This document shows, piece after piece, positions 1 through 63,341 of a DNA stretch of 64,000 bases. Both the position numbers and the translations under genes were made by a program. The stretch's first letter is position 1, and each line of letters starts with the position of its first letter. A model generated the notes under the pieces. It saw nothing but the letters and a program-made list of their open reading frames with translations. It had not been told where the DNA came from and ran no database searches. This DNA comes from Acanthornis magna (Eukaryota; Chordata; Aves; Passeriformes; Acanthizidae): NCBI GenBank assembly GCA_036785705.1, contig JAWUZG010000980.1, forward strand, positions 1 through 64,000, given 5' to 3'.

Positions 1-1100
1 GTGCACGGCGCTGTTCGAGGAGATCAGCCGTGGGGATTTAGGGATCCCTGACAGGGATTTAGGATCTCTGACATTGATTTGGGATCTCTCACACTGATTT
101 GGGATCTCTCTGACCCCATTATCTTTAGGGAGCGGTGGAATCCATCGCCATGAAGAACCCAAAGGAGCGCACGGCGCTGTTCGAGGAGATCAGCCGTGGG
201 GATTTAGGGATCCCTGACAGGGATTTGGGATCTCTGACATTGATTTGGGATCTCTGACACTGATTTAGGATCTCTCACACTGATTTGGGATCTCTCTGAC
301 CCCATTATCTTTAGGGAGCCGTGGAATCCATCGCCATGAAGAACCCCAAGGAGCGCACGGCGCTGTTCGAGGAGATCAGCCATGGGATTAGGGATTTCCC
401 ACAGGAATTTGGGATCTCTGACACTGATTTGGGATCTCTGACGCTGATTTAGGATCTCTCTGACCCCATTATCTTTAGGGAGCAGTGGAATCCATCGCCA
501 TGAAGAGCCCCAAGGAGCGCACGGCGCTGTTTGAGGAGATCAGCCACGGGGATTTAGGGATCCCTGACAGGGATTTAGGATCTCTCACACTGATTTGGGA
601 TCTCTCTGACCTGATTATCTCCAGGGAGCTGTGGAATCCATCGCCATGAAGAACCCCAAGGAGCGCACGGCGCTGTTCGAGGAGATCAGCCATGGCGATT
701 TAGGATCTCTGACAGGGATTTGGGATCTCTCACACTGATCTGGGATCTCTGACATTGATTTGGGATCTCTCTGACCCTGTTATTTTTAGGGAGCGGTGGA
801 ATCCATCGCCATGAAGAACCCGAAGGAGCGCACGGCGCTGTTCGAGGAGATCAGCCATGGGGATTAGGGATTTCCCACAGGAATTTGGGATCTCTGACAC
901 TGATTTGGGATCTCTCACACTGATTTGGGATCTCTCTGACTGCATTATCTTTAGGGAGCGGTGGAATCCATCGCCATGAAGAACCCCAAGGAGCGCACGG
1001 CGCTGTTCGAGGAGATCAGCCATGGGAATTTAGGGATCTCTGACACTGATTTGGGATCTCTGACATTGATTTTGGATCTCTCTGACCCCATTATCTTTAG
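1..1100. repeat. Tandem array of acceptor plus 5' part of exon E1 (six decoys and a fragment)
   Basis: Units of about 146-186 bases join a short intronic repeat (built on GGGATCTCTGACACTGATTT), a TTATCTTTAG acceptor and the first 67 bases of exon E1, up to ATCAGCC. Exon-like parts start at 129, 315, 479, 625, 790 and 955, and a partial copy fills 1-29 at the window edge. The seventh acceptor, at 1099-1100, leads into the complete exon. Each decoy leaves the exon sequence at the same base, so the unit boundary lies inside the exon. Some decoys end in CCGTGGGG, which offers a GT; a 67-base exon would shift the frame. Confidence 0.93.

Positions 1101-63341: not shown

Follow-up and report, generated by a model that had tools for sequence, protein, structure and literature searches.

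Arrays of exon edges and decoy splice junctions in the introns of a songbird-like SMC1A gene, a probable dense case of exon stuttering

Intronic repeats that carry copies of exon edges have been described and named in chicken by Hron et al. 2026 (PMC12954441), who speak of 'sequence stuttering' and 'exon stuttering' on the dot chromosomes. In the portions of their paper drawn on here, exon stuttering comprises 1,345 hits in 236 introns (190 of them on dot chromosomes) and 115 genes, with exon parts of 20 to 187 bases (median 36) and 1 to 44 copies per expansion; the expansions show strong length polymorphism, the copied edges bring their own splice site, and a criterion is given by which more than 90% of the sources lie within 1 base of an exon border. 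The same portions propose repair under replication stress or meiotic conversion as the origin, suggest that the repeats expanded independently in species, and report a check of the PHF8 repeats (chicken chromosome 29) against raw nanopore data. Our searches of the literature found the terms sequence stuttering and exon stuttering only in that paper, and found no paper on SMC1A together with dot chromosomes; SMC1A has 0 occurrences in the main text of Hron et al. (PMC12954441), and the intron, splice and tandem-repeat passages of the complete chicken genome paper (PMC9974502) hold nothing comparable. An earlier note on the DNA analysed here had known of no named phenomenon to which its arrays could belong, a statement overturned by the terms that Hron et al. 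introduced.

The arrays that we describe resemble chicken exon stuttering, as set out in those portions, in that imperfect local repeats fill the introns and lateral exon parts lie with their splice site in the adjacent intron. They also resemble minisatellites of human segmental duplications, whose units meet the exon-intron boundary with cryptic splice sites possible; as presented in the relevant passages of that report (PMC2812944), these repeats lengthen exons or give rise to new introns in primate paralogs of recent origin, with an average of 4 units of 30 bases, whereas in SMC1A the exon keeps its edge, the extra copies are intronic, and a single conserved gene is affected at 21 of its 40 edges. 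SMC1A looks like a heavy case of exon stuttering, and we consider it very likely that its arrays are exon stuttering in a songbird, the phenomenon being already named and the gene a dense new example. Higher-order tandem arrays, in which tandem units form recurring multi-unit sub-families, share the sub-families with SMC1A, but the SMC1A unit spans the edge of an exon and includes a splice site. In human, SMC1A and PHF8 are neighbours on Xp11.

The plus strand of the window (the whole stretch of DNA that was analysed, 64,000 nucleotides) holds 20 SMC1A exons corresponding to human residues 138 to 1169, which were located by tblastn with the human SMC1A protein sequence. These are E1 (1101–1303), E2 (8275–8513), E3 (13829–14087), E4 (17131–17271), E5 (18386–18468), E6 (20503–20710), E7 (24815–25000), E8 (28527–28706), E9 (31009–31155), E10 (35422–35559), E11 (39965–40081), E12 (42515–42629), E13 (43488–43629), E14 (51317–51462), E15 (53901–54054), E16 (55102–55212), E17 (58239–58395), E18 (59169–59323), E19 (60829–60980) and E20 (63272–63341), the last lying outside the range covered by the earlier note. 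All 20 have AG upstream and GT downstream, and when they are joined the reading frame is clean in 18 of the 20, the exceptions being E1, which is one base short of the expected frame in a run of G (1165–1180), and E12, where a perfect 8-base tandem duplication (42515–42535) breaks the frame and leaves the exon 8 bases too long. Either the assembled bases therefore contain some errors, or the coding part has itself been altered to some extent. The missing base of E1 is what a long-read homopolymer error would produce; the frame break of E12, in an essential gene, could stem from a fault of assembly, from a rare allele or from stuttering within the exon itself.

The peptide encoded by E2–E11 matches PDB chains named SMC1A (residues 206–771), and over E2–E11 and E13–E20 together 927 of 928 aligned residues are identical to SMC1A of Catharus ustulatus (Swainson's thrush). 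For E2–E11 the identity is 566/566, the Catharus model having a single additional residue, and for E13–E20 it is 361/362, which bears out the earlier assignment of this DNA to SMC1A and to a bird. SMC1A of the other six birds compared is more distant from the window peptide; Catharus is an oscine, and three of the other six are suboscines. With Catharus ustulatus as its nearest match, SMC1A in the window is songbird-like, in which it differs from the chicken cases presented in the portions of Hron et al. cited above.

A repeat finder had been proposed in the earlier note as a check on the introns, and Tandem Repeats Finder arrays do cover 54,917 of the 60,897 intron bases in the window (90%). 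We count 21 introns, the first and last of which are cut by the window ends, and captured exon edges are present in 15 of them. The six introns that lack captured edges include introns 1, 4, 10 and 11, which at 89–99% tandem repeat are like the others, together with intron 12 (72%) and the cut-off intron 20 (48%); since four introns fill with tandem repeats in this way, the repeats do not require exon sequence to anchor them. Between 2001 and 6000, intron 1 has a strong excess of purines on the coding strand, with a GC skew above 0.8 and GAGGAAAGGGAAT-like repeats that involve no exon capture. Rfam gave no matches at the gathering threshold. We also considered G-quadruplex formation as a drive and rejected it, because the excess of motifs is too weak (88 on the plus and 92 on the minus strand, compared with 61.2 and 63.6 in 5 shuffles each), and introns 0, 7 and 19, all with captured edges, have no motifs on either strand.

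We compared the exons alone with the introns by BLAST at settings close to those of the published screen, using 20 dinucleotide shuffles as a control, in which the best score was 26.3 bits. Above this score there are 143 matches in adjacent introns, all on the plus strand and 0 on the minus strand, and a single match in a distal intron, whose coordinates fall inside an E13 decoy; a similar stretch (EAEIEKL) is encoded by both E2 and E13. No match covers 90% or more of an exon, the maximum being 58%. Tandem exon duplication is a local tandem duplication involving exon sequence in which the whole exon is repeated, and SMC1A is unlike it in that no whole exon is copied in the window, as the earlier note had also stated. 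At the 42.1-bit cut-off of Hron et al. (PMC12954441), 89 matches remain in 14 introns of this one gene, which is denser than the 1,345 in 236 introns and 115 genes given for chicken at the same cut-off in the portions cited. The exon parts in these matches, at 22 to 82 bases with a median of 33, can be set beside the chicken values of 20 to 187 and 36 from the same portions. Within 1 base of the exon border lie 57 of the 89 matches and within 7 bases 82 of the 89; local BLAST matches start late where edge bases differ, and an alignment forced end to end carries all 245 copies described below across the border.

Alignment across the junctions identified 247 copies at 22 exon edges, from which we left out the E18 donor edge, with 2 weak copies of 68% exon identity, to retain 245 junction-spanning copies at 21 of the 40 edges of the gene. 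The earlier note had spoken of well over 150 decoy junctions and had listed the same 12 acceptor and 9 donor edges that the alignment recovers, namely the acceptor edges of E1, 3, 6, 7, 8, 9, 10, 14, 16, 17, 18 and 19 and the donor edges of E3, 6, 7, 9, 13, 14, 15, 17 and 19. It had also described nearly fixed breakpoints with captured lengths of about 11 to 82 bases, and this agrees with the modal captured length per array (11 to 82 bases) and with breakpoints inside the exon that are nearly fixed in most arrays, to which we add second or further classes at the E7 acceptor, E8 and E9. Its remark that the functional site is always the one next to the exon is true, but follows from the geometry.

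The acceptor-edge arrays, all on the plus strand, are those of E1 (104–1021, 6 junction copies, continuing past the start of the window), E3 (9493–13757, 48 copies), E6 (19619–20124, 2 copies), E7 (22253–24635, 13 copies), E8 (28266–28465, 3 copies in two breakpoint classes), E9 (29746–30963, 12 copies with several breakpoints), E10 (31722–35294, 20 copies), E14 (45633–51204, 30 copies), E16 (54850–55033, 2 copies), E17 (57555–58098, 3 copies), E18 (58859–59125, 3 copies) and E19 (59924–60690, 5 copies). The donor-edge arrays, on the same strand, are those of E3 (14172–16345, 18 copies), E6 (20919–21474, 3 copies, one of them short), E7 (25107–28175, 29 copies), E9 (31257–31659, 3 copies), E13 (44620–45358, 2 copies), E14 (51510–53210, 32 copies), E15 (54172–54613, 3 copies), E17 (58469–58859, 5 copies) and E19 (61120–61569, 3 copies). 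An array thus holds 2 to 48 copies in this more sensitive junction search, as against 1 to 44 in the chicken expansions covered by the portions of Hron et al. cited.

The reading frame of the captured pieces offers a way to distinguish variants born in the array from variants born in the exon, and so to establish the order of array and exon changes with no need of reads from further birds. We took the variants in the captured exon parts and derived the expected number of synonymous changes from sites with the same base and CpG state, leaving the E6 donor array (one of whose 3 copies is poorly aligned) and the E18 donor array out of the final test. Rare variants, found in fewer than 30% of the copies of an array, are synonymous in 53 of 163 cases, with 46.2 expected and 359 of 3000 draws reaching this number, and since they carry no clear frame signal we conclude that the copies drift as non-coding DNA. 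Frequent variants, found in at least 30% of the copies, are synonymous in 40 of 75 cases with 24.6 expected (0 of 3000 draws, and 4 of 3000 in the worst case when single arrays are left out), and these strongly synonymous differences indicate that the exon itself has changed since the array was seeded. With the E6 donor array included, 49 of 99 are synonymous (31.1 expected, 0 of 3000 draws). Restricted to arrays with at least 5 copies, the test gives 17 of 32 with 10.1 expected (17 of 3000 draws), and small arrays therefore contribute part of the full signal. Of the 40 frequent synonymous differences, 25 have G or C in the exon and A or T in the array, 8 are the reverse and 7 are swaps of G and C; either a gain of GC in the exons or a loss of GC in the arrays fits this bias. 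The frame thus suggests that the SMC1A arrays are older than some of the synonymous changes in the exon. Their length may still have changed recently, but this reading of age qualifies the view of such expansions as young in evolutionary terms.

In 10 of the 11 arrays with at least 5 copies the copies are closer to the functional edge than to each other, the exception being the E19 acceptor (0.89 to the functional edge versus 0.895 between copies), and mean divergence between copies within these arrays is about 5 to 22%. Similarity as a function of lag is flat in them, neighbouring copies being no more alike than distant ones, and sub-families reappear along the E3, E7 and E10 arrays. Similarity to the functional edge shows no significant fall with distance in any of the 11 arrays, although two, the E7 acceptor (p 0.072) and the E10 acceptor (p 0.073), lean towards falling away from the exon. 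The mechanism offered in the earlier note, slippage or unequal exchange anchored in exon sequence with later spread into the intron, is thus partly supported: slippage or unequal exchange is plausible, the anchoring is not a requirement for the repeats, and we reject the outward spread for lack of a significant distance trend in these 11 arrays.

An alternative explanation for the arrays is that exon edges are copied into the intron repeatedly, with exchange between exon and array still going on. Variants at intermediate frequency (30–80%, in arrays with at least 5 copies) are synonymous in 14 of 26 cases with 9.2 expected (98 of 3000 draws), secondary breakpoints are present in E8 and E9, and some copies are exactly equal to the exon over the captured part (E3 at 13345 and E10 at 34859), all of which speaks for repeated copying. 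Most arrays, however, have nearly fixed breakpoints, and there is no significant gradient of similarity towards the exon; we regard this account as possible but rather unlikely.

Exon stuttering, the reading that we prefer, would begin with a tandem duplication whose ends lie in the intron and inside the exon, such that it crosses one exon edge; the exon would remain intact, and the intron would gain an extra copy of its edge that serves no purpose. The array would then grow by multi-unit blocks, through unequal exchange or repair copying, and not unit by unit from the exon, as is suggested by the sub-families that recur along the arrays. Copies would subsequently drift as non-coding DNA, a step that the reading-frame test supports, while the exon, under purifying selection, would undergo mainly synonymous change, and the array would keep some older states of the exon edge. 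Only arrays of a single edge would be expected to survive, because duplications within the exon or of the whole exon would damage the protein.

The decoys must be ignored if SMC1A protein is to be made, yet AG or GT is intact in 228 of the 245 retained copies (229 of 247 with the E18 donor included). By a simple score based on consensus matrices, 224 of the 245 decoys equal or exceed the weakest functional site of the same kind in the gene, and 123 of the 245 equal or exceed the functional site of their own edge. The gene therefore offers a natural test of splice-site choice, in that about half of the decoys are by this simple score as strong as the real site and share its adjoining exon sequence. 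Among intronic sites at or above the functional median, decoys account for 64 of the 76 that are donor-like and 44 of the 96 that are acceptor-like. The remaining 52 acceptor-like and 12 donor-like sites compare with 148–176 and 41–59 in 5 shuffles, and the scarcity of cryptic donors outside the decoys possibly reflects selection against them, but we do not claim a depletion of non-decoy sites, since shuffled sequence makes a weak null model for repetitive DNA. Most copies in the E10 acceptor array (31722–35294) have TAG in place of a GAG codon, with T in 15 and C in 4 of the 20 copies.

In 235 of the 245 cases, splicing that used a decoy together with the real exon would shift the frame or bring in a stop. 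Six introns hold both kinds of decoy, and in each of them all donor decoys come before the first acceptor decoy, with none of the six interleaved; with donors preceding acceptors in this way no decoy exon can form. This order is consistent with a final step of exon stuttering in which splicing would tolerate the decoys, and in which mis-spliced products would almost always be frameshifted or contain a stop.

To examine retention of the splice dinucleotides we used copies found by exon sequence alone, which are 136 of 140 matches of at least 30 bits, the other 4 ending more than 12 bases from the edge. The dinucleotide is intact in 131 of the 136, the highest of 18 adjacent pairs, and for acceptors alone in 78 of 83, tied with one other pair. 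We do not accept this comparison with the functional edge as proof of selection; it is unfair, since the functional AG or GT cannot change whereas its flank can. Compared among the decoys themselves (11 arrays with at least 5 copies), the dinucleotide is kept in 202 of 218, versus 177.5 (sd 15.0) for pairs in the intron flank (919 of 20000 draws) and 182.1 (sd 11.4) for pairs in the exon (547 of 20000 draws). The decoys show no sign of purging, and a weak retention of the dinucleotide is possible, although it is statistically borderline.

Two further explanations would give these sites a role. One is that the decoys act on the pre-mRNA, for instance as landing sites for splice factors along the repeat-filled introns, with dinucleotides retained better than their neighbours and the arrays old enough to preserve, in layers, the synonymous states that each exon edge had at earlier times; we hold this to be improbable. 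The other is that decoys are kept by selection for a function such as binding U1 or the 3' splice-site machinery along long introns, or delaying splicing. This would accord with the retention figures, both in the copies found by exon sequence and among the decoys, and with the large share that decoys have of the strong donor-like and acceptor-like intronic sites. With the constrained functional edge removed from the comparison, however, the effect becomes small and borderline, AG or GT has been lost in 7 of 32 E14 donor copies and 7 of 48 E3 acceptor copies, and most decoys would break the protein if used, which together make this explanation more improbable still. Least probable of all is an assembly artefact, in which collapsed or mis-joined long reads made the arrays: the lost base in the G run of E1, the 8-base duplication of E12 and the drop-out of PacBio HiFi reads on bird dot chromosomes, as noted in a passage of PMC13320880, could be read in its favour, but joining errors would not give divergent copies with recurring sub-families and frequent differences that follow the codon frame, and the PHF8 arrays of chicken were checked in raw reads by Hron et al. 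(PMC12954441).

Exon stuttering, described in chicken, thus appears to occur at high density in a songbird as well, and in a cohesin gene that is essential. The reading-frame test of array and exon change, the counts of splice-site strength and the order of donor before acceptor decoys go beyond what is contained in the portions of Hron et al. (PMC12954441) cited here.

Some features of SMC1A models from other birds can be set beside the window. Three of these (P0004, P0020 and P0022) are located on contigs of 10.9 to 23.7 kb, compared with about 62 kb from E1 to E20 in the window, which may reflect either shorter introns in those birds or collapsed assemblies. The model of Grallaria varia (P0003, on a 20,792-base contig) contains exon 15 twice with an apparent retained intron between the two copies, perhaps reflecting a tandem duplication of the whole exon or an assembly fault.
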